Shown here one piece after another: positions 17,251-32,583 of a stretch of DNA of 32,583 nt. The stretch is from a virus, in the IMG/VR virus record IMGVR_UViG_3300031801_000658, positions 1 to 32,583 of that record; one strand, written 5' to 3'. Every line of letters begins with the position of its first letter. Within the stretch, counting starts at the first letter, position 1. A program made the translations under genes and the position numbers. The notes beneath the pieces were generated by a model. That model worked only from the letters and a program-made list of their open reading frames with translations, was not told the origin of the DNA and searched no databases.

Positions 17251-18158
17251 ACCTCTAGTATTTCTAAACCGTGAACACAATGTTTAATGTCTTCCTCTAT
17301 TTGCAACTGTTTGACGAACTCCTTCTTATTCATGTCAAACACAAGCAAACGAGCCGGGGAAGAGCCTATTATAGCATAACTTCCGCTTCTAGTCAACCCT
17401 CTATTCCAGTTATTTTCTGCAATCTTATCTACTGAAAATTTAGCAAAGTTAGTGGGTGGAACTGGAAAGAAGTTTGATTGTCCGTCTTTAATAATTCCTA
17501 GGTGTTTTAGACTTGTCATGTTAATCAGGGTGCAGTCATCGTATTCATAAAAGTTGTGCTGAAAACTCTTAACTCCATCTATAGAGGGCATGTATTCTAT
17601 AGCCTCCATGGTTTCAAAATCATACAAGTGTGTTATCAAGGCAGAGAACACCAGTCTGCCAGAAAAGGCAGAAACTGAGTTAATATGATATTTGTCATCT
17701 GACACAGCGCCTTTGGGATCTATTTGTCTTTTGCCTGTGAATATCTTGTGATCTTCTTTGTTCTCTCCTAAAATCTCCCAAAATTCGACCACGTTAAGAT
17801 CTGAGTCCAGTTTAACTATTGCGTCATACCCGGTAGATGTGACCCAAATATGCCCATCGAAGTAACAGATCTCGTGAACGGATTTAAAAAATCCTCTGTC
17901 CTGTTTTTTATTAGTTATTTCGTAGCTGTTTTTATCCAGTTCTAATAAGCCGCTTGAGTCAGCTACAATGATTTTGTCTTCTAAAACGGCTATTCCTCTC
18001 AGCCCTCTTTCGCCACCTCTTGTGTTCTCGTTATCAAACTCTCCCGCATGCGGAATGTATTTAATGATTTCGTCATTGTCGATATCAATAACATAGAGGC
18101 CGCCATGTACAGATCCCTGCTTAGCTGCTCGTATAACTGTTGAGCAAATTACTTTCAT
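17247..18158 (-). CDS. Beta-propeller protein (TIGR03032/DUF4915-like)
   Basis: 303 aa, a chain of four-stranded blade-like repeats (GGLYVIDIDNDE, LRGIAVLEDKIIVADSSG, VHEICYFDGHIWVTSTGYDAIVKLD, HINSVSAFSGRLVFSALI, YAIIGSSPARLLVFDMN). The His-rich VHEI and HINSV turns are typical of propeller families found in glycosylation and sugar-binding clusters. No signal peptide. Overlaps the GDP-fucose gene by 38 bases, so the two are probably made together, and may act on the same glycan; enzymatic activity is not shown. Confidence 0.65.
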   Translation of the reverse strand: MKVICSTVIRAAKQGSVHGGLYVIDIDNDEIIKYIPHAGEFDNENTRGGERGLRGIAVLEDKIIVADSSGLLELDKNSYEITNKKQDRGFFKSVHEICYFDGHIWVTSTGYDAIVKLDSDLNVVEFWEILGENKEDHKIFTGKRQIDPKGAVSDDKYHINSVSAFSGRLVFSALITHLYDFETMEAIEYMPSIDGVKSFQHNFYEYDDCTLINMTSLKHLGIIKDGQSNFFPVPPTNFAKFSVDKIAENNWNRGLTRSGSYAIIGSSPARLLVFDMNKKEFVKQLQIEEDIKHCVHGLEILEV

Positions 18159-19092
18159 TGAACCAGCCTATTGTATTTTCTAGACCTTCCTTTAGACCAA
18201 CAGAAGCTTTGAACCCAAAAGAGGATTCTGCCATACTGGTGTCTAAACATCTCCTCGGCTGTCCGTCTGGTTTAGCTGAGTCAAATATGATCTCTCCTCG
18301 ATAGCCGACTATTTGGCCTATAAGAACGGCTAGCTCTTTGATTGTGATTTCTTTTCCGGTTCCTATGTTAACCGGGGAAGGCTCTTCGTATTGTTCTAAA
18401 GCCATTACTATTGCGTTGGCGCAATCGTCCACGTATAAAAATTCTCTGCTGGCTTTGCCACTTCCCCAGACTACTACTTCTTTGTTTTGATTAGCTTTTG
18501 CCTGTTTAAATTTTAAGATCAGGGCTGGAATAACATGGCTGCTATCGGGATCAAAGTTATCTCCGGGTCCATACATGTTGACAGGAATAAGGGTGATGCC
18601 ATTAAATCCATACTGTTTTCTATATGCCTGAAGCATCTCCATAAGAGCCTTTTTGGCAATACCATATGGAGCATTGGTTTCTTCTGGATATCCGTTCCAG
18701 AGGTCTTCTTCCTTAAAAGGAACCGGCGTAAATTTTGGATATGAGCACACGGTGCTGGTCAACAAAAACTTTTTACAGTTCCGTTTTCGCGCTTCTTCAA
18801 TAAGATTTAGGCCCATGGCCATGTTTTCATAAAAAAAACTTCCGGGGTTCGCCTTGTTCGCTCCAATGCCTCCGACCCTAGCGGCTAGATGTATTATTAC
18901 ACTTGGTTGATAATTTCGAAATAAATAAGCTACATCTAGGCTTTTGGTAAGATCAAGTGACATTGGGGCACGAGACCCCGGAAGCTCTACTATATTATTG
19001 TATCCAGAAGACTTCAACTTTTTGCAGACTATTCTACCTAAAAATCCTTTTCCACCAGTGACAACAATCCTGTCTGTCTTCTCGATGCTCAT
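18121..19092 (-). CDS. fcl: GDP-L-fucose synthase (extended SDR)
   Basis: 323 aa from the ATG at 19092 (GAGGT about 10 bases upstream, and 14 bases after the holin-like gene); the frame could begin at 19140 but that would overlap it. NADP-binding TGGKGFLG at 12-19, catalytic S113/T114 (LTSTVCSYP), Y143-x3-K147 (APYGIAKK) and the family block VNMYGPGDNFDP. Converts GDP-4-keto-6-deoxy-mannose to GDP-L-fucose by epimerisation/reduction. No GDP-mannose dehydratase in the window, so its substrate comes from the host or from elsewhere in the phage. Could modify host LPS or phage glycans. Confidence 0.88.
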   Translation of the reverse strand: MSIEKTDRIVVTGGKGFLGRIVCKKLKSSGYNNIVELPGSRAPMSLDLTKSLDVAYLFRNYQPSVIIHLAARVGGIGANKANPGSFFYENMAMGLNLIEEARKRNCKKFLLTSTVCSYPKFTPVPFKEEDLWNGYPEETNAPYGIAKKALMEMLQAYRKQYGFNGITLIPVNMYGPGDNFDPDSSHVIPALILKFKQAKANQNKEVVVWGSGKASREFLYVDDCANAIVMALEQYEEPSPVNIGTGKEITIKELAVLIGQIVGYRGEIIFDSAKPDGQPRRCLDTSMAESSFGFKASVGLKEGLENTIGWFNESNLLNSYTSS

Positions 19093-19106
19093 TTGATTGA
19101 TAACCT

Positions 19107-19280
19107 CTAAGCAGTTCTTAGACTGTCTCCAACGATCCAAGCGCCACCTAGCAAAACGATGTTGCTAACCTGCTCTGGATTAAGATCAAGTCCAAAAATG
19201 TTGGTGGTAGTTACAACAATACCCCCAACGGCTACCCAGAATCGCCGGGACTTGATTAGTAGCTGTAGCTTTTCAGTCAT
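19107..19280 (-). CDS. 57-aa holin-like membrane protein
   Basis: Starts at ATG 19280 with GGAG about 8 bases upstream, ends at 19107. Translation begins MTEKLQLLIKSRRFWVAVGG and continues through a GLDLNPEQV turn to IVLLGGAWIVGDSLRTA. Two hydrophobic segments (about 14-29 and 39-52) around a short LDLNPEQ turn: a pattern I associate with small phage membrane proteins often labelled holin or lysis proteins. Lies among envelope genes. Function inferred only from size, topology and context. Confidence 0.65.
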   Translation of the reverse strand: MTEKLQLLIKSRRFWVAVGGIVVTTTNIFGLDLNPEQVSNIVLLGGAWIVGDSLRTA

Positions 19281-19318
19281 CGTCTCTTCTCCATAAAAAA
19301 AGTAATACGAAATCCATT

Positions 19319-19663
19319 TCAGAGGGGTCCATCCTTAGTGATTCTATATCCCGTATTAGCTCTATTATCGCAACTGGGACACATAGGGGTCTTCTGACTA
19401 TGCATACCGAGTTGATGTTGAGTCTTTAGAAGCTGTTGCAATAGCACCGTATCTCTCATAACAGCTTGTTTGTTCATGTTTTGCAGACCCGCCGCAAGGG
19501 CGGCTGCGTCTTGGCTAGTTATGGCCACGTTCTGAACTTCAGGGGTAGGCTCGGTTTTTTTAGGAGCCATATAGTAGTTAATGATAGCGATATCCAGAGC
19601 AACGAGTACGACTGCCGCGCACGTTACTTTAAGTACGAGGAGCGTTGATGGTTTTAGAGTCAT
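19319..19663 (-). CDS. Single-pass membrane protein, unknown (spanin-like topology)
   Basis: 114 aa. One N-terminal membrane helix (about 9-31, VLKVTCAAVVLVALDIAIINYY), then a periplasmic-facing helical Ala/Gln region (AALAAGLQNMNKQAVMRDTVLLQQLLKTQHQ) and a CPSC metal/disulfide motif near the C-terminus. Size and topology would fit an i-spanin but there is no partner lipoprotein gene inside it. Overlaps the upstream protease gene by 35 bases. Function unknown. Confidence 0.65.
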   Translation of the reverse strand: MTLKPSTLLVLKVTCAAVVLVALDIAIINYYMAPKKTEPTPEVQNVAITSQDAAALAAGLQNMNKQAVMRDTVLLQQLLKTQHQLGMHSQKTPMCPSCDNRANTGYRITKDGPL

Positions 19664-20588
19664 TGTCTTCTCTAATTAGGGGAAGCACTGGGAATTTTAC
19701 AGTGTCTATGGTGGCCTTAGTTCCTCTGGTTGGAGAGCTTTCAGTTCCTTCTGTGGACATATATGTCATTTCTTGTAGAGAAGGAACCTTAACGTCTGTG
19801 TCAATAGCCCATAGAACGTTTTCTTTCTTGGCGTAGGCTCTCATTCTCCTTACGGGAACGACCAGATTGAAAGTTTCTCCCGCGCCACGAACAAGCATCC
19901 CCATGTACTGTCCAGCATTATCACCAGACCTCTCGCTTAAGAATACTCCACCACCACTGGACCCCGGAAAAGCCGTCACTGTGGTTTGATCGAAGACTAC
20001 ACCGCTTCCGTTGCCCAAGTCAAGAACTCTTCCAACTTGAGAACAAATTCCTCTCGTCATAGAATTCGAGCCAGTTTGGCCTAATAATGAGCCGACATGG
20101 TAAAGTTCTGTGCCAATGGCTACTGGCTTACCTGCGGCCTTATAGAAGGTGGCTGACTTGTCAACAAAACCCTTCTTTCTGACCATTAGAAGAGCCAAGT
20201 CTTCGCCGTTCTCAGAATCACTGTACTTAATGACCTTAGCTTCCATTTTAATTTCGCCAACCCGGCGGCCATTCTCAACTAGCTCCTGAACAATTTGAGC
20301 GTCCTTGAACTCAACAACTGTTTGGGGCTTGCCATCTTTGATGACAATTCTAACCGATCTAAGACCGTCTACAACGTGTGCCGCAGTCCAAACAAAATTA
20401 ACCTTCTGCTTGACGTTTGGGGAAGTTTCGATCTCCCGCGTTACAATAACGCCGGAGCCTTCTCCCCCTGCCGCCTTCACGGTGACGGAAACGTCTTGCA
20501 GATGTTGATAAAGTTGATTGTCCTGAGCGTTTGCCGCCATATTAAATACAGCGATAACGAGTGTAGCGATACACATAGCCTTCTTCAT
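19629..20588 (-). CDS. Secreted trypsin-like serine protease
   Basis: 319 aa. N-terminal Sec signal peptide (MKKAMCIATLVIAVFNMAANA, cleavage near 21). Chymotrypsin-fold triad: H71 (WTAAHVV), D130 (NGEDLALL), S211 in FPGSSGGGVF. Two Cys are scarce, so it is not disulfide-rich. The C-terminal 60 residues are Thr/Ser/Pro-rich and disordered. Expected to cut proteins in the host periplasm or outer envelope. Follows an unknown 263-aa gene and a larger protease; the ribosome site AAGGAAGGAC lies just upstream in a short gap. Confidence 0.85.
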   Translation of the reverse strand: MKKAMCIATLVIAVFNMAANAQDNQLYQHLQDVSVTVKAAGGEGSGVIVTREIETSPNVKQKVNFVWTAAHVVDGLRSVRIVIKDGKPQTVVEFKDAQIVQELVENGRRVGEIKMEAKVIKYSDSENGEDLALLMVRKKGFVDKSATFYKAAGKPVAIGTELYHVGSLLGQTGSNSMTRGICSQVGRVLDLGNGSGVVFDQTTVTAFPGSSGGGVFLSERSGDNAGQYMGMLVRGAGETFNLVVPVRRMRAYAKKENVLWAIDTDVKVPSLQEMTYMSTEGTESSPTRGTKATIDTVKFPVLPLIREDNDSKTINAPRT

Positions 20589-21427: not shown

Positions 21428-23401
21428 TTACTCGATATTATATTTTTTCTTAAGTCTTTGACGTAGTAAGGTATCAACTTGAAAAGCGGTCATAGTGTGG
21501 TCGTCTCCGTACTCATTAACCAATTCTCCCAGAGCGGTCATAATTTGCTCTGGGCCAATAGACTTCCGTGAACCAAAGGGCACATGTGGCAATAGTGGTG
21601 CTAATCCGGGTGACGATACTGTGTTGGCCTTAAAACCATAAGGGAGAAAATCATTAGGCATCTCATCAACGCTTCTGCCTCTAGGAAGATCTCTGCGATC
21701 CATTACATATTCCTGCGGGTGGTCTGGCCTTGTGTTTGGCAAGCCATGATGCTGGTGTTCATGCATATGCTTTTGTACGCAATCTCCACACCCATCATCT
21801 TGTATTGGGGGCGGAACAGGAGTTTCCCTATCAATATCATACCCATCATCGTCGTTTTCGTCATCCTCTTTTTTCTTTTTTCTTCTCCTTCTTCTGTTAA
21901 GTAAAAATGGAACTCCGTATTTGAGGGCAAGCATGCCTAGACTGGCTCCACCAAGGGTAAAGCTAACGTTTTCAACTGCGTTACCATTACCGCCAGTAGC
22001 CCCATCTAGATAATGAATTCCGTTTTCTGCAAGATCAGAAATTTTGTCGTCTTTATCTTTAACAACGCCTAGTAGCTGATCTATTCTAGATTTAAGAGAG
22101 CCTTTCTGTCCTTCGACAGTTCCTAATAGTTCTTTCAGACCGTTAATTTCATTATTAGAACTTGATAAATTGCCAGAGACTCCTGCAAGCTCAGCTTTTA
22201 GGCTTTCGGAAAGAGCTTCAAGATTGGCTAGCTTTTCTTGAAGTTCTGTGATCTTGTCAAGATATTCTTGGCGTTCTTTTCCAAAGTCAATAGGTGGATC
22301 AACAGGACCACCGGGATCTGGTCTTCCGGGCCAACCATCAAAGCCACCGTCTGGCGGATTTGGGTTAGAGGGAGGTAATACAGGTGGTTGATTGGGCGGG
22401 GGACATCTATCCCAAGGACACCAAGGAAACAGGCCGTTTCCTTCGTATAGCTCGCCAACTCTGATTCCACCATAATATTTTGCCGTATCTGCGATACCAC
22501 CACCGGGGAGCTTCAGTTCGGGGCAAAACATGAACTCTCCCTTGGGGGTTTTCCTAAGACCACCCTTGAGGGGAATAACCACATGGTCTTTAATCTTATG
22601 GCCACAGTGAGGACAGACTTTACTTAATCTTTCTTCTGCGGACTTAGTGTTTATAGCCTCTTCTTTTTCTTCGTACACTAAACTGTAAGAAGTTTCAATA
22701 GGATGTCCCTGACCATTACCCTCAATGATATCGTAAATCTGCTTTAGGGATAGGCCAGCGCCATAGTCATCTGGACCATCATCTGTCCAAGCCCCATCTC
22801 CAACTCTCCAAGCCAGCAAGATACCCAACCTAGTGTGAGTCTCTCCCTTGTCATCTTTGATAAGAATGAGAACTCCGCTACCTGATTGACCACCAATAGG
22901 AGCAGCATTAAAACTAACAACAGCCCCCGCATTTCTCAGGACTCTGCCTTTCCAAGCGCAAACCCATTGTGCGGAAGGACATCCGCCAGCCATCACAAGA
23001 TCGTTAGCTCCTATTTTTGTACCTTTGGGAGCAAGAGGAATGACTCTAGGGGGATATCGACCGAAATATTTCTTTTTTACTGACACTATAGCTAGATCAA
23101 GAGCGGTTCCCTCTTCGTAAGCTACGTATTCAGTTTTAAAAGGAATCATAGCGGACTTGTAGCCATCTTGAAAGAACTCTAGGTGGCCTCTCTTGGCTCT
23201 TCCAATTACATGGCCGTTGGTCAGTACGTAGTAGTTTTCTTCATCTTCTTGAAATACAGTTCCGCTGCCTATGGCTCCGTTGGTATTTACTCTACATACT
23301 GCGTCTAGTGCTTGATCTATGGTGAGTGGTTGAGCGGATGCTGGACTGCTGCTTAGAATTAACGCTAAGAAAAGCGCTATCGCGCATAGAAATTTATTCA
23401 T
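21428..23401 (-). CDS. Membrane-anchored trypsin-like serine protease, multidomain
   Basis: 657 aa. Sec signal peptide (1-23, ASA|Q); protease domain 30-225 with H64 (TNGHVIG), D102 (ALDLAIV), S173 (GGQSGSG); Cys pairs 263/266 (CPHC) and 293 with 328/333, a likely zinc ribbon; Pro-rich linker 334-371 (PPPNQPPVLPPSNPNPPDGG); coiled coil 374-460; one membrane helix 479-501 followed by RRRRRKKKK, a stop-transfer; then an acidic, His/Cys-rich segment (CGDC, HMHEHQHH) and a cytosolic-side helical tail. Protease outside, tail inside is the expected topology. Preceded by GAGG ribosome site. A remarkable architecture for a phage. Confidence 0.82.
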   Translation of the reverse strand: MNKFLCAIALFLALILSSSPASAQPLTIDQALDAVCRVNTNGAIGSGTVFQEDEENYYVLTNGHVIGRAKRGHLEFFQDGYKSAMIPFKTEYVAYEEGTALDLAIVSVKKKYFGRYPPRVIPLAPKGTKIGANDLVMAGGCPSAQWVCAWKGRVLRNAGAVVSFNAAPIGGQSGSGVLILIKDDKGETHTRLGILLAWRVGDGAWTDDGPDDYGAGLSLKQIYDIIEGNGQGHPIETSYSLVYEEKEEAINTKSAEERLSKVCPHCGHKIKDHVVIPLKGGLRKTPKGEFMFCPELKLPGGGIADTAKYYGGIRVGELYEGNGLFPWCPWDRCPPPNQPPVLPPSNPNPPDGGFDGWPGRPDPGGPVDPPIDFGKERQEYLDKITELQEKLANLEALSESLKAELAGVSGNLSSSNNEINGLKELLGTVEGQKGSLKSRIDQLLGVVKDKDDKISDLAENGIHYLDGATGGNGNAVENVSFTLGGASLGMLALKYGVPFLLNRRRRRKKKKEDDENDDDGYDIDRETPVPPPIQDDGCGDCVQKHMHEHQHHGLPNTRPDHPQEYVMDRRDLPRGRSVDEMPNDFLPYGFKANTVSSPGLAPLLPHVPFGSRKSIGPEQIMTALGELVNEYGDDHTMTAFQVDTLLRQRLKKKYNIE

Positions 23402-27364: not shown

Positions 27365-27577
27365 TTACTTCTTCATACAATTAGGACACTTGCAACCAGT
27401 ATCGTCACAAGCACACTTGTCGCATACGCAATTGTCACAGGCGCAGGCGGCTTTATCGCCACCAGCAACTGGACACACACCAGCACAATTACACAGTAGC
27501 GGACAGAAGTGGAGGCAGTAACCGACCGCAACCCCAATGCCCAAACACAGAAAATGCTTCTTGACAAAGTCTAACAT
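27365..27577 (-). CDS. Cys-rich metallothionein-like membrane protein
   Basis: 70 aa, 15 Cys. N-terminal hydrophobic segment (about 8-30, FLCLGIGVAVGYCLHFCPLLC) anchors or exports it. The C-terminal part (45-67) has nine Cys in 23 residues: CACDNCVCDKCACDD then TGCKCPNC, with CxC and CxxC spacing as in metallothioneins. Expected to bind several Zn, Cu or Cd ions. ATG 27577 (GGGAG 8 bases upstream) overlaps the glycosyltransferase stop by 7 bases. A metal-binding or redox role in the envelope is inferred; a disulfide-rich peptide is an alternative. Confidence 0.7.
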   Translation of the reverse strand: MLDFVKKHFLCLGIGVAVGYCLHFCPLLCNCAGVCPVAGGDKAACACDNCVCDKCACDDTGCKCPNCMKK

Positions 27578-28419
27578 TTGATTTCTCCCTTAAACTGATA
27601 TTGAATCTCTTGATGGCATCCTCTCACTTCGGAGAAATCCATAGAATCCAAATCTATGGCATGTCCTGATAAAAATAGATTGTTTAATTCCTCTAACTCC
27701 ATCCCATACTTTTCCCCAGCTTTGTTTACCGACGACCCCACAATATTAGCAGGGCTATTGACAAGAACGCTTTCGTCAAAACAAGCCATAAGGTTTGGCA
27801 AGGAGACATCAAATTCACCAGACCCCTCAAGTCCGTTAGGGGTATCAAAATCGTAAGTGATCATCTCTAGCACTTGATCTCTTCTATATATATGGCCATC
27901 CACGGAAAATGGATAGGCAAAATTAGTATGTTTGGGTAGTAGCGTCCAATCCCACAAAGCGTACAGGTCGTCAACCGCAATCAATTCTTGGGGGAATGGG
28001 CACGCCTTGTCTTTATATTCGTTTTGAACTGATGTATTACTTCCTAGTCTTAGAGACAAGCATAGCAATTGTTTTTCTTGAGTGTCAAAATACCTAAACA
28101 TAGTGTCTATTGATTCAAAAGTCGTTTCTACTTTTCTGTATAAAATATTATCATCAACAAAAAAGCAAATGTATTCTCCTGAGTTTTTTATAGCCTCTAG
28201 AGTTATGTCTCTAAAATCTGAAGGAGGAGACTGCTGTTTGGTCCAGACTATCTCTTCATATTGATCTTGTAATATATTATACCCATCTTGAAATGCGTCC
28301 GAAGAAGCATTGTAAATGACGGTCATATTAAAAAGATTAGAGCCATTTTTGCTTATGCTATCTAAAAGTAGGCCAAGCTGGTTAGCTCTGTCTCTAGAAA
28401 AGATAATTGTAGAGATCAT
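27571..28419 (-). CDS. Glycosyltransferase, GT2-like (GT-A fold)
   Basis: 282 aa. Begins MISTIIFSRDRANQLGLLLD, as in GT-A family enzymes, followed by VIYNASSDAFQDGY and the metal-binding ICFFVDDNILY (DDN at about residue 90). Later residues carry hydrophobic beta strands. Transfers a sugar from a nucleotide-sugar donor; acceptor unknown. Start overlaps the previous gene's stop as ATGA. Part of the surface-modification cluster. Could also be a paralogue with altered specificity. Confidence 0.65.
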   Translation of the reverse strand: MISTIIFSRDRANQLGLLLDSISKNGSNLFNMTVIYNASSDAFQDGYNILQDQYEEIVWTKQQSPPSDFRDITLEAIKNSGEYICFFVDDNILYRKVETTFESIDTMFRYFDTQEKQLLCLSLRLGSNTSVQNEYKDKACPFPQELIAVDDLYALWDWTLLPKHTNFAYPFSVDGHIYRRDQVLEMITYDFDTPNGLEGSGEFDVSLPNLMACFDESVLVNSPANIVGSSVNKAGEKYGMELEELNNLFLSGHAIDLDSMDFSEVRGCHQEIQYQFKGEIKC

Positions 28420-28730
28420 TCGTCGTTATCTCGATTTTTCTTGGAGTTGTAGTTTTCTGCTGTCTTGTCTAGAATAGTTTTTGCTCTAGACTGTTTTTTG
28501 AAAACTAAAGTTCTTCCGTTTTTTCTGTATGAACCCCTTCTAGAGTAATAAAAAAGTTCTCCAGTTTTAGGGTCTTCATACTCATAAGCGCCTTTAGACC
28601 TGTTTTCCCACTTGCTATGACAAAAAGCAACTCTCTGTTTAGAATCTGGAAAATCTCTCTTGGCTTCTTCGCTAGACATACACCTTGAAACATAATCTTT
28701 TTGTTGTTCGCCTTTACGCGGAGATGGCAT
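28416..28730 (-). CDS. Small phage protein with MPSPRKGEQQKDYVSRCM motif
   Basis: 104 aa. N-terminal SPRKGEQQKDYVSRCMSSEEAK and DFPDSKQRVAFCHSKWEN look like a small conserved phage domain (Cys in RCM and FCH). Then a basic region (YYSRRGSYRKNGRTLVFKKQ). I recognise the pattern from phage proteins but not its role. Overlaps the GT4 gene by 17 bases. Confidence 0.65.
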   Translation of the reverse strand: MPSPRKGEQQKDYVSRCMSSEEAKRDFPDSKQRVAFCHSKWENRSKGAYEYEDPKTGELFYYSRRGSYRKNGRTLVFKKQSRAKTILDKTAENYNSKKNRDNDE

Positions 28731-29781
28731 TTATAATCTCCTTTGCTGTGTTGTCCCAAGAAAATTTCTCGGCTGTTTTTACGCATTCGTCATTGACAAA
28801 AAGTCTGCCCTTTTGTTTTGCTCTGTGAATAGCCCCCATGTAGAGAGCTATCTGTTTAACCTGTTTCTCTCCAACTTTAGCCCACTGTCCCTGACCAAAG
28901 AACCACTTGTTGTCAGTCGCATCTTCTTTTTCGTCTGTGTGTATAAGCATAGAATTGTCTTTGGTGCAAAATTCAGTATGCCCAGAATAATTGGTGGCGA
29001 CTACATGCTTACCACAGGACATCAGTTCTAGCAATTCTAGGTTCCATCCTTCTGCTCTGGAAGGAAAGACACCGCAATCAATTTGTCTCATTATATTATA
29101 CACATCCTGCTGAGTTCTTTGCCTAGGAATTATTCTGATCTTGTCCCCCAGAACAGAGCTTTTGTACAGATTTTCCCAGTATTGATTTTCTTCATCTGTG
29201 TAAAATGGATTGTGGCACATCATCCAAAGCTCTACGTTGTCATTAGGGGTAAAAGCTTCGTTGAAGGCTTCTACTAAAATATCGTGTCCTTTTCTGACCT
29301 CCCATTTACCACAATTAAAAAATACGGTCTCTGTTCTGGAAGACGCGCTTTCTTTGAATATTGTTCTGTCTACCCCCAGAGGAGCCACAAAAACTTTTGG
29401 ATCTCCAGAGACATGTTTCAGGCACACCTCCTTGGCCCATTCAGAGCAAACAATTATCTTGTCAAGTGAACTAAGATGGTGTTCTTCCTGAATTGTAAAT
29501 CTGTCAAGCTCAAAAATAGGAAACCCGATCCTATCGCCCCTTCCCACAAATTGGCTCATGTCATGCTGATGCCATATTCGTAAGCAGGGAGCGTTAAAAT
29601 CGGGCAATTCAGATCTTCCTATACACTCTTTAACGAGCGGGACATAGGAATTATCGCAATCAGGTTGTCCTATTGACCAGAGAGATACCTCAAGAGATGT
29701 GTTAAGAGCCGAGACTATGTTGAGTCCAGCAACTCCGTATCCCAGTTGGTTTATTGGGGATATTATATTAATTGGGTCCAT
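28714..29781 (-). CDS. Glycosyltransferase family 4
   Basis: 355 aa. GT-B fold: N-terminal domain with GYGVAGLNIVSAL (donor-loop Gly), then FVAPLGVDRTIFKE, NCGKWEVRKGHDILVEAF and the retaining-enzyme E-x7-E motif PSRAEGWNLELLELMSCG and VVATNYSGHTE. It would add a sugar from NDP-sugar to a lipid or polymer acceptor. Sits in the sugar module next to an exostosin-like and a GT2-like enzyme. Donor specificity cannot be read. Confidence 0.85.
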   Translation of the reverse strand: MDPINIISPINQLGYGVAGLNIVSALNTSLEVSLWSIGQPDCDNSYVPLVKECIGRSELPDFNAPCLRIWHQHDMSQFVGRGDRIGFPIFELDRFTIQEEHHLSSLDKIIVCSEWAKEVCLKHVSGDPKVFVAPLGVDRTIFKESASSRTETVFFNCGKWEVRKGHDILVEAFNEAFTPNDNVELWMMCHNPFYTDEENQYWENLYKSSVLGDKIRIIPRQRTQQDVYNIMRQIDCGVFPSRAEGWNLELLELMSCGKHVVATNYSGHTEFCTKDNSMLIHTDEKEDATDNKWFFGQGQWAKVGEKQVKQIALYMGAIHRAKQKGRLFVNDECVKTAEKFSWDNTAKEIINAISA

Positions 29782-29989
29782 TTCTACCTAAACTTTCTAT
29801 AAAATCCCAATCTATATGATTGACGACATTTGTCGTACACGATCCAAAAAATGGATGAACCTTTCGGGCTTCTATTGACATCATGGATGCGTGTCGTTTT
29901 AGCTGAGACAAGTTGTGCGCCATGTTCAAGTTCTCTCCGATACAATAGTCGTAGAACACCTTGGTTGCCATGTTAGGAAAAATGTTCAT
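29768..29989 (-). CDS. Small unknown protein
   Basis: 73 aa from ATG 29989, which has an AAGGGG site six bases upstream; a later ATG at 29971 lacks one. Helical N-terminus, then HPFFGSCTTNVVNHIDWDFIESL. It overlaps neighbours by 17 and 14 bases, so it is translated in the same transcript as the glycosyltransferases. No family recognised. Confidence 0.6.
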   Translation of the reverse strand: MNIFPNMATKVFYDYCIGENLNMAHNLSQLKRHASMMSIEARKVHPFFGSCTTNVVNHIDWDFIESLGRNGPN

Positions 29990-30941
29990 AGAAAGCCCCT
30001 TGTATCATTTTTGTCCAATATGACAATTTAGCTTTATCGAGAGTGGGGGCCACAGGTGGCACACGAGACATGATTTCGTCGTACTTCCGCTGTAGCCAGT
30101 CTAGGGAGTTGACAACTCCCCAACTTTTGATTTTCAGTATTGGCAGACCATCCAAGTATCTCATCGCGGGGCCATCTTCGACAATCGGTATGGCTCCCAA
30201 GTAAATAGACTCTAAAATCCTGTAGCAGTCAACCCCGTTGCCGGGAGGACAGGCTACAAATCTGTGCCGAGACAGTTCTGACAGGTATTCTTCGTATGGG
30301 ACATCTGGATTTTCGTGAGAAGTCACCCAATCCCAACCGTTGTTGATAAAAAATTTCTTGATGTGCATTCTGTCTGTAGTATAGTTTTGCCAATTGACAT
30401 AGAGCCAATCCGTTTTTATGAGATCTGGGGTGTTTGATATAGCATCAGCAGCATCTTTACCAACCCCAATCGGGATGCCCTGAAGTTTATTTTTCATCAG
30501 GAGAGGATTGACCACAAACCACTTGATAATATTGTCAGGTATTTTGTTAAAGGTTCCCATTGTAAAAGAATGACATTTGATAGAATACCTATCTTTTAGA
30601 TTACATTTTTCAATATCGCATCTGGGAGAAATCTTTAGGGCTTTATATTCTATTTTTGGTATTTCTGATTCTATAAACGGCAACCATTTTAACATATCCG
30701 TAGCCACCGGATGTTCTTTTTGGTATGCTAATCCAAAGTCACTAAAACCGCTGACCACCACATATTTATTGTGGGTTCTTTTGCACTTGTCAAAAAATTT
30801 GGTGATATGTTCAATATTACAATAGACTATACCAGACGGAGGGATATCATCTATGCCCGGATAATCATATTCATAATTGCAATCGGCTATATCCATCCAA
30901 GACTTACAATTAATTATGTCTAATTTATCTATCAGGGACAT
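29973..30941 (-). CDS. Exostosin-like glycosyltransferase
   Basis: 322 aa. The C-terminal part has the GT47/exostosin-type block: YLSELSRHRFVACPPGNGVD followed by RILESIYLGAIPIVEDG, with Arg and Glu for the donor phosphate and sugar. N-terminal half with VVVSGFSDFGLAYQ and PIGVGKDAAD. Cytosolic. Adds a sugar to surface or virion glycans; the specific linkage is unknown. Overlaps the fusion gene upstream by 17 bases. Confidence 0.65.
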   Translation of the reverse strand: MSLIDKLDIINCKSWMDIADCNYEYDYPGIDDIPPSGIVYCNIEHITKFFDKCKRTHNKYVVVSGFSDFGLAYQKEHPVATDMLKWLPFIESEIPKIEYKALKISPRCDIEKCNLKDRYSIKCHSFTMGTFNKIPDNIIKWFVVNPLLMKNKLQGIPIGVGKDAADAISNTPDLIKTDWLYVNWQNYTTDRMHIKKFFINNGWDWVTSHENPDVPYEEYLSELSRHRFVACPPGNGVDCYRILESIYLGAIPIVEDGPAMRYLDGLPILKIKSWGVVNSLDWLQRKYDEIMSRVPPVAPTLDKAKLSYWTKMIQGAFYEHFS

Positions 30942-32445
30942 CTATTCCTACCCCTCCAAACAGTGTCATTGTATCCATACAAAAGACAGGTCTCTCTGTT
31001 CTTTTATATATCTCGGCGGCTTGTGCGTATTCGCTTTCTACAAAAAGGGCCGCTTCTGGACATCGGTAATAAGCTTCCGCTTTCCATTTGCCAAAACCTT
31101 CGCTGGAGAGTCTTTCTTCTACGGAGTCGTATGGGCTCATGATTAGCTGCTTATATTTAATCTTGTGTAGAGCCAACCAGTCCTCGGTAATATCTCTATA
31201 TTTTTCAAGTCTAGCGGTTACAATTTTCATCAATGGGTATTGAGGAACGTAAACCGTTGGCTCAACTGTTTTCAAATGCTCTACATAGTCTGCGCTGCCA
31301 TCTACTATAGTCCCGTCAAAGTCTGGGCAGAGAACTCCGTCTAGATCGCAAAGGTATGCCCCGCACTGAGGGTCTCTCAGAAAGCTCCATTCCCACGAAT
31401 GGTAGATTGTCGGCAAAATCCCGTAGAAAAAATCTACATCATCTTTTCTATCTTCGTTGATATACATCAACCCGTAAACAAACTCTCCCCTGTTTTTGAG
31501 ATATGATTTAGTTCTCTTAAGAGAGGAGCCACTCCAGCAAGTATCATCAACGACGAGTATCGGGCCAGTGGGTTTATATATCGGTCTAGATATACTTGGC
31601 CTCCAACAGAAGTTGTTGTGTAGAATTCCGTCTACGGTGACAAGTGGTATGTTGCGATATTCAGAAATAATAGACGCTATAAAAGATCCGCTTCGTGGTA
31701 TGCCACAAACAGCACTTACTTCTGGAATATCTTTACACCAGTCTTTTATATCCTTGATCACACCTGCATAAGACTTGTATACGAATTGATGAGTGCCATC
31801 GTCAAAAGGGGCTTTAAAATTAAGATCAATCAATTCATTGACTGACCTTGTTTCGTCCACAGACCTGCAAATAAATTGAGCATGATTCTCACTTGGGTAT
31901 TTTGATTTTGCAAATTGATATATATTACAATCTTCCATTACTATTTCGAAGTTAGGATCATCTTGTATTATTTTAGCAACATTTTCGTGTTCAGGACCAT
32001 CAATATAACATCTAGTTGTTATATATAACGTAGAAGTAATTTTTCGCATGTCTTCAAGAAACTTCTTAACTGCTTCTGCACTGTCCATAGTCTGAAACAC
32101 GAATGAAGCGATGACCATGTCGTATTTATTTTGTTGAATTGTAGACCAATCACTCGTTAACAAATCAATGTCTTCTTTACACAATTCTTCACATCTACCC
32201 ACAATGGATTCCAAGTCATAGCCATGAAGCTCTGTGCTGAATCCTTTGAAATACTTGAAGTGTCTACCAATGCCGCATCCAAAATCTAGTATTTTGTATT
32301 TTCTACCTTTGACATTGATTAAATCTAACGGGGTGTGGGGTAGAGCCTCTACCTCTCCGTGTCCGGTCAGAATACACTCTTTTAACTCTACGTCGTTGGT
32401 GTCTAGGCCTACTTGCTCCCACCGTTCGTTATTAAGATAATCCAT
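30925..32445 (-). CDS. Three-domain fusion: SAM methyltransferase - phosphoribosyltransferase - HAD phosphatase
   Basis: 506 aa. Domain 1 (about 49-195): Rossmann methyltransferase with SAM loop ILDFGCGIGRH (53-62) and acidic YDLES (76-80). Domain 2 (about 220-335): type I PRTase with GIPRSGS (248-254) and the PRPP loop VVDDTCWSGSS (298-308). Domain 3 (363-495): HAD with D367-x-D369 (YLCDLDGVL), T410-A-R and later Lys. Order suggests methylation, PRPP-dependent transfer of a ribosyl phosphate and dephosphorylation, for example making a modified nucleoside or sugar. The HAD motif IV is FVESE rather than DD. Start overlaps the upstream partial gene by 14 bases. Confidence 0.82.
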   Translation of the reverse strand: MDYLNNERWEQVGLDTNDVELKECILTGHGEVEALPHTPLDLINVKGRKYKILDFGCGIGRHFKYFKGFSTELHGYDLESIVGRCEELCKEDIDLLTSDWSTIQQNKYDMVIASFVFQTMDSAEAVKKFLEDMRKITSTLYITTRCYIDGPEHENVAKIIQDDPNFEIVMEDCNIYQFAKSKYPSENHAQFICRSVDETRSVNELIDLNFKAPFDDGTHQFVYKSYAGVIKDIKDWCKDIPEVSAVCGIPRSGSFIASIISEYRNIPLVTVDGILHNNFCWRPSISRPIYKPTGPILVVDDTCWSGSSLKRTKSYLKNRGEFVYGLMYINEDRKDDVDFFYGILPTIYHSWEWSFLRDPQCGAYLCDLDGVLCPDFDGTIVDGSADYVEHLKTVEPTVYVPQYPLMKIVTARLEKYRDITEDWLALHKIKYKQLIMSPYDSVEERLSSEGFGKWKAEAYYRCPEAALFVESEYAQAAEIYKRTERPVFCMDTMTLFGGVGIDVPDR

Positions 32446-32583
32446 CTTTTCTTTTCATCTCGTTTTGAACATATATACAGGGTGAACCATCACATATTTC
32501 GTGTATCTTTCCATTTAGAATATATTTTCTCAGGTCTTTAATTCTTACCCCATCCCATATTTCTTCTAGATCATCATCGTGTA
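32432..32583 (-). CDS. C-terminal end of a radical-SAM-like protein (runs off the window)
   Basis: 49 residues at the right edge, stop at 32432. LEEIWDGVRIKDLRKYILNG followed by KIHEICDGSPCIYVQNE has a C-x5-C arrangement after an IW...LR segment, as seen at the ends of SPASM/radical SAM enzymes. Those bind an auxiliary Fe-S cluster there. Just the tail is visible, so this is a tentative family assignment. It precedes the fusion gene with a 14-base overlap. Confidence 0.45.
   Translation of the reverse strand, partial: HDDDLEEIWDGVRIKDLRKYILNGKIHEICDGSPCIYVQNEMKRKDGLS

Follow-up and report, generated by a model that had tools for sequence, protein, structure and literature searches.

A phage-encoded methyltransferase-phosphoribosyltransferase-HAD protein and its widespread two-domain core, a candidate family of PRPP-dependent glycan ribosyltransferases

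In the O-ribosylation of butirosin and ribostamycin, BtrL and BtrP, a phosphoribosyltransferase (PRTase) plus a phosphatase, add ribose to a sugar hydroxyl. The way in which glycans acquire ribofuranose when no nucleotide-sugar donor is used was worked out recently, and for one enzyme family only. In that family, PRTase and HAD domains have been proven to ribosylate glycans from PRPP (PMC10299916, PMC12096443, PMC11231755), and a lipid-linked variant of the reaction has also been described (PMC11127046). Its members Bcs3 (CriT/CrpP) of Haemophilus influenzae, Cj1432 of Campylobacter jejuni, and the Klebsiella O4 ORF5 and O7 ORF7 proteins carry a PRTase-type and a HAD domain in one chain.

The window analyzed here is a stretch of viral DNA of 32,583 nucleotides (IMG/VR record IMGVR_UViG_3300031801_000658). 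An initial annotation had pointed out a single chain with a SAM loop, a PRPP loop, and HAD motif I, in which a PRTase and a phosphatase follow one another. All three motifs were located in one uninterrupted ORF (Table 1), where the PRTase precedes the HAD domain and both have intact motifs. The domain search and structure comparison that had been proposed identified a methyltransferase over residues 1 to 209, an XGPRT-like PRTase over residues 218 to 357, and a T4 Pnkp-like HAD phosphatase over residues 358 to 495. The N-terminal part is a class I SAM methyltransferase according to its DFGCGIG motif I loop and its match to the Pfam Methyltransf_11 profile (E 2e-5, over the cutoff). The PRTase was matched weakly by Pfam (E 0.003), and the HAD domain was matched weakly by PHROGs, as Pnkp-like; Pfam recognized no HAD domain in the window and none convincingly among 37 aligned family members. 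The assignment of these two domains is nevertheless firm because of the relatives in the core alignment, the AlphaFold model, and the fold matches to XGPRT and T4 Pnkp. The type I PRTase is recognized by its fold and by a PRPP loop with two adjacent aspartates, and the HAD phosphatase is recognized by D367 and D369 (DxD), T410, K455, and the acidic E470. A weak PADLOC match to mad2 covered the methyltransferase portion alone and was not read as a sign of defense.

Table 1. Positions of the fusion gene, its domains and motifs, and other glycan-related genes in the window
Feature	Positions	Strand	Observations
Methyltransferase-PRTase-HAD fusion gene	30925..32445	(-)	506 aa, one uninterrupted ORF
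Methyltransferase region, residues 1-209	31819..32445	(-)	Pfam Methyltransf_11/25; PDB 3i9f, E 4e-6
SAM loop DFGCGIGRH, residues 54-62	32260..32286	(-)	Unchanged in both phage relatives apart from H62
Type I PRTase domain, residues about 210-357	31375..31818	(-)	Purine PRTases (profile, E 6e-13); XGPRT fold, Z about 15
PRPP loop VVDDTCWSGSS, residues 298-308	31522..31554	(-)	Relatives: D301 in 73/73, D300 as D/E in 73/73
HAD phosphatase domain, residues about 358-506	30928..31374	(-)	Pnkp1 profile, E 2e-4; T4 Pnkp phosphatase, Z about 13
HAD motif I DLDGV, residues 367-371	31333..31347	(-)	Relatives: D367 in 72/73, D369 in 72/73
HAD motif II TARLEKYR, residues 410-417	31195..31218	(-)	T410 in 71/73, R412 and R417 in 73/73
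HAD motif III Lys455	31081..31083	(-)	K in 73/73
HAD motif IV Glu470-Ser471	31033..31038	(-)	E in 73/73, S in 71/73
RXYLT1/GT47-like glycosyltransferase	29973..30941	(-)	Pfam RXYLT1_C, E 3e-7; retained in G001 and G002
GT4 glycosyltransferase	28714..29781	(-)	Pfam Glyco_trans_1_4, E 7e-17
Possible GT-A-type glycosyltransferase	27571..28419	(-)	By eye: VDDN motif, common to three phages
Upstream gene, C-terminal end only (window edge)	32432..32583	(-)	Resembles end of L138 radical SAM region, by eye
NAD-dependent nucleotide-sugar epimerase, GDP-L-fucose synthase-like by eye	18121..19140	(-)	Pfam Epimerase, E 2e-62; phrog_540

The AlphaFold model, built from a 75-sequence alignment, replaced a single-sequence prediction with a mean pLDDT of 34; its pLDDT is mostly above 90 over residues 221 to 500 and about 40 to 78 over the methyltransferase. 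The PRTase model matched the folds of Escherichia coli XGPRT and the Sulfolobus and Pyrococcus purine PRTases (Z, 14 to 15), and the HAD model matched those of the T4 Pnkp 3'-phosphatase and Pnkp1 (Z, 12 to 13). Degenerate PRPP or HAD sites, which would have spoken against the annotated activities, were not seen. Residues D301, G253, R412, K455, and E470 are invariant among 73 aligned members, and D300, R251, D367, D369, and T410 are nearly so. This conservation of intact PRPP and HAD motifs argues for ribosylation of a glycan. From domain anatomy and genomic context we infer the activity, the sugar as acceptor, the order of the steps, and the site of methylation, and on balance the protein is probably a phage-encoded glycan-tailoring enzyme. 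Working inside the phage's own glycosyltransferase operon, the PRTase domain would transfer ribofuranose-5-phosphate from PRPP to a hydroxyl on a lipid-linked sugar or on a glycan still being built. The HAD domain would strip the 5-phosphate and leave the sugar free for extension or capping, and the N-terminal methyltransferase would then O-methylate this product, either at the ribose just added or at a neighboring sugar.

The residues around the acceptor site bear on the choice between a sugar and a base, both of which had been considered initially. We take XGPRT residues D92 and K115 to be those that contact the purine base in 6-oxopurine PRTases. Their counterparts in the window are Trp304 and Asn330, and among the 73 relatives the D92 position is Asp in 2 and the K115 position is Lys in 5, whereas both residues are present in all five of the solved relatives shown. 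This loss argues for a glycan acceptor. A Glu/Gln-Trp-Asn motif at residues 352 to 354, with Ser at position 354 in the window group, occurs in most members and probably belongs to acceptor binding. An alternative is that an aromatic compound resembling a nucleobase is ribosylated by the PRTase, the HAD domain converts the product to a nucleoside, and the methyltransferase modifies it, yielding a small nucleoside-like molecule. The fold and the nearest solved relatives are indeed those of nucleobase enzymes, which counts against a glycan acceptor. The profile matches to purine and orotate PRTases fit a base, and a hood tryptophan conserved in 71 of 73 members could stack on a ring. Other PRTases also lack the XGPRT Asp and Lys, so another base could be used. 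We nevertheless consider a nucleobase acceptor unlikely, since the base-contact positions are variable, the neighbors and fusion partners are of glycan type, and purine and pyrimidine salvage enzymes are absent among the commonest neighbors. The sugar option of the initial annotation is thus retained and its nucleoside-like product is not.

Glycan acceptors are also favored by the setting of the PRTase-HAD core. In 30 cellular loci, the commonest neighbors are glycosyltransferases, flippases, methyltransferases, epimerases, and sulfotransferases, and in plasmid loci a lipopolysaccharide biosynthesis (flippase-type) gene, the PRTase-HAD gene, and a glycosyltransferase gene follow in this order. 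The core is also fused to GT2 plus Capsule_synth (L072), GT2 (L084), GT4 (L023), FkbM methyltransferases (L056 and L079, and marginally L063, which also has GT4), other methyltransferases (L121 and L018), and radical SAM (L119). The L072 protein (L072:1303-6825), of 1,841 aa and from an alphaproteobacterial MAG, resembles a capsule polymerase with GT2, Capsule_synth, and GT2 regions and a C-terminal PRTase-HAD core. The 28 viral loci speak less clearly for a glycan, since the majority of their neighbors had no match and the annotated ones are led by methyltransferases, with GT2 and further sugar-modifying families coming next. A link to tellurium resistance clusters, mentioned in the initial annotation, found no counterpart: Ter genes were absent from the 25 commonest families near the 58 loci (30 cellular and 28 viral), and nothing relevant was found in the literature searched.

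The frequent flippases fit a further alternative, in which polyprenyl phosphate is the acceptor and the product is a lipid-linked ribose donor for a separate transferase, as in three-component pentofuranose systems. Lipid-linked ribose is known to be formed from PRPP with the help of a HAD PRP domain, but the enzyme in that case is a membrane protein of the UbiA type (PMC11127046) and the fold seen here is soluble and XGPRT-like, which makes this route quite unlikely. It is very unlikely that the fusion protein acts on phage or host RNA or DNA, with ribosylation or 3'-dephosphorylation combined with methylation as in Pnkp/Hen1 RNA repair: the HAD domain is nearest to Pnkp 3'-phosphatases and the window also holds DNA metabolism genes, but the protein has no kinase or ligase domain and polysaccharide loci are the main setting of its cellular homologues.

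Glycosyltransferase genes adjoin the fusion gene, in agreement with the sugar cluster originally described. Two of the three downstream glycosyltransferases named there were recognized by Pfam (GT47-like and GT4), and the third is GT-A-like by eye only, its product having no Pfam match and no useful PDB match. The fusion gene shares 17 bases with the GT47-like gene downstream and 14 bases with the gene upstream, an arrangement suggestive of an operon. It also occurs as a single ORF in two other IMG/VR contigs, one of 31 kb (L005/L138; 504 aa, 77% identical) and one of 77 kb (L135/L140; 508 aa, 67% identical), and gene order matches in both along almost all of the overlap with the window. The fusion is therefore stably maintained in one phage lineage, and neither chance nor assembly error accounts for it. 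The C terminus of the upstream gene, compared by eye, is nearly identical to the tail of an ORF pair in the 31-kb contig, the first part of which is a Radical_SAM region (the match in G001 has an E value of 3e-17). This radical SAM gene (L138:4136-5168), directly upstream of the fusion, is split over two overlapping frames by a frameshift or a sequencing error. In the 77-kb contig, a CAP59-type glycosyltransferase is directly upstream and the radical SAM match is absent.

Some other genes of these phages were noted. In both related phages, DUF1501 and IscA-like iron-sulfur proteins are encoded just upstream of the cluster (L138:1626-3262 and L135:1555-3119, the L135 IscA-like protein by eye). 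The 77-kb contig has, at 61 to 76 kb (L143:1179-16147), a second dense run of glycosyltransferase, sugar-nucleotide, and sugar-like ORFs, judged by eye from translation starts. Two DNA polymerase III alpha-like pieces (L142:9367-11280 and 18041-19729, by eye) have metabolic-looking genes between them. The window itself encodes two trypsin-like proteases (19629-20588 and 21428-23401; Pfam Trypsin_2) with signal-peptide-like starts, which is unusual for a phage.

Residues 213 to 500 represent a two-domain family of wide distribution, whose first recognized relatives were on rhizobial and Paracoccus plasmids, and the PRTase-HAD part can be aligned over almost its full length with 128 loci. A profile scan, needed because a single-sequence scan of viral contigs gave no matches, yielded 49 viral loci and 440 genome-contig relatives, the best 80 of which were retained. 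These 80 come from Pseudomonadota, Planctomycetota, Verrucomicrobiota, Bacteroidota, Bacillota, Cyanobacteriota, Spirochaetota, haloarchaea, and others. Pfam, NCBIfam, and PHROG have no dedicated model for the core; its members match xanthine or orotate PRTase models in NCBIfam, and similarity in GenBank phage records is limited to the Pnkp-like HAD. No known activity was found for any core member. This common core without a curated family is of more interest than the triple fusion. Five loci, viral and from Schlesneria (L034, L043, L049, L052, and L090), encode Cys-rich N-terminal extensions, some with HGEC, that are possibly metal binding.

A 74-sequence tree places the window group with two Schlesneria (Planctomycetota) sequences (support, 99/86) within a mainly viral clade (99/94) with long branches. 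For the N-terminal methyltransferase fusions, those of the window group and L018, the tree is compatible with one origin as well as with separate ones. A single origin of the C-terminal ones was rejected, as the tree requires four changes, and several methyltransferase fusions other than that of the window arose separately. The triple fusion is rare and, among the sequences found, confined to one phage lineage of three members, and no characterization of it was found, although the PRTase-HAD core is common. The methyltransferase could be a passenger that acts in another step of the operon, with coexpression as the sole reason for the fusion. Stand-alone PRTase-HAD proteins are the rule and few members carry a methyltransferase. 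The moderate modeling of the methyltransferase part counts against the glycan-tailoring reading as a whole. We regard a passenger role as rather doubtful, because the core has methyltransferases of different families attached to it, on either side, methyltransferases are prominent next to the viral genes, and the fusion is retained in three phages at 67 to 77% identity. If the glycan-tailoring function is correct, phages that combine the core with a methyltransferase may make a methylated and ribosylated glycan of their own, which might decorate virions or serve to alter the host surface.

Compared with known systems, the core shares its fold (Z, 14 to 15), PRPP loop, and hood tryptophan with the 6-oxopurine PRTases E. 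coli XGPRT, Sulfolobus GpT-1 and GpT-2, and Pyrococcus 1vdm, but it lacks their base-contact Asp and Lys, is fused to a HAD domain, and resides in glycan loci; it is therefore, on the basis of the base-contact residues, not a 6-oxopurine PRTase. Its HAD domain shares the fold (Z, 12 to 13) and motifs I to III with the 3'-phosphatases of T4 Pnkp and Pnkp1 but differs in having Glu-Ser as motif IV, no kinase domain, and another partner. BtrL and BtrP are separate proteins, whereas the two activities expected of the core reside in one chain.

The known PRPP-dependent ribofuranosyltransferases resemble the core in being encoded in glycan loci, in being sometimes fused to glycosyltransferases, and in PRPP being the expected donor. 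Bcs3 and Cj1432 have the order HAD (PRP) and then PRTase (gPRT) (PMC12096443, PMC10299916), whereas the PRTase comes first in the window and its aligned relatives. The core retains the vicinal D300 and D301, while Bcs3 has D680 and E818 from different loops and carries helical-bundle insertions (PMC10299916). Pnkp1 was the sole PDB match of the HAD profile at E values up to 10, no gPRT or PRP chain was present by name among the best 60 of 114 PRTase-HAD profile matches, and Bcs3/gPRT structures were absent among the fold matches listed, which is compatible with remote kinship. Because of the opposite domain order and the vicinal Asp pair, compared by published descriptions, the core was not filed with the Bcs3/Cj1432 type. 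We tentatively propose, as a reading with nearly even prospects, that it constitutes a second family of glycan ribosyltransferases that depend on PRPP, assembled independently of the Bcs3/Cj1432 type from a purine-salvage-type PRTase and a Pnkp-type HAD and present in many bacterial phyla, archaea, and phages, to which the phage fusion would add methylation within the same chain. If so, the core could serve as a sequence marker for ribose-containing glycans, and such glycans would be more numerous in bacteria and archaea, made by an uncurated but common family with the same two expected activities as the Bcs3/Cj1432 type, other nearest relatives, and the opposite domain order.
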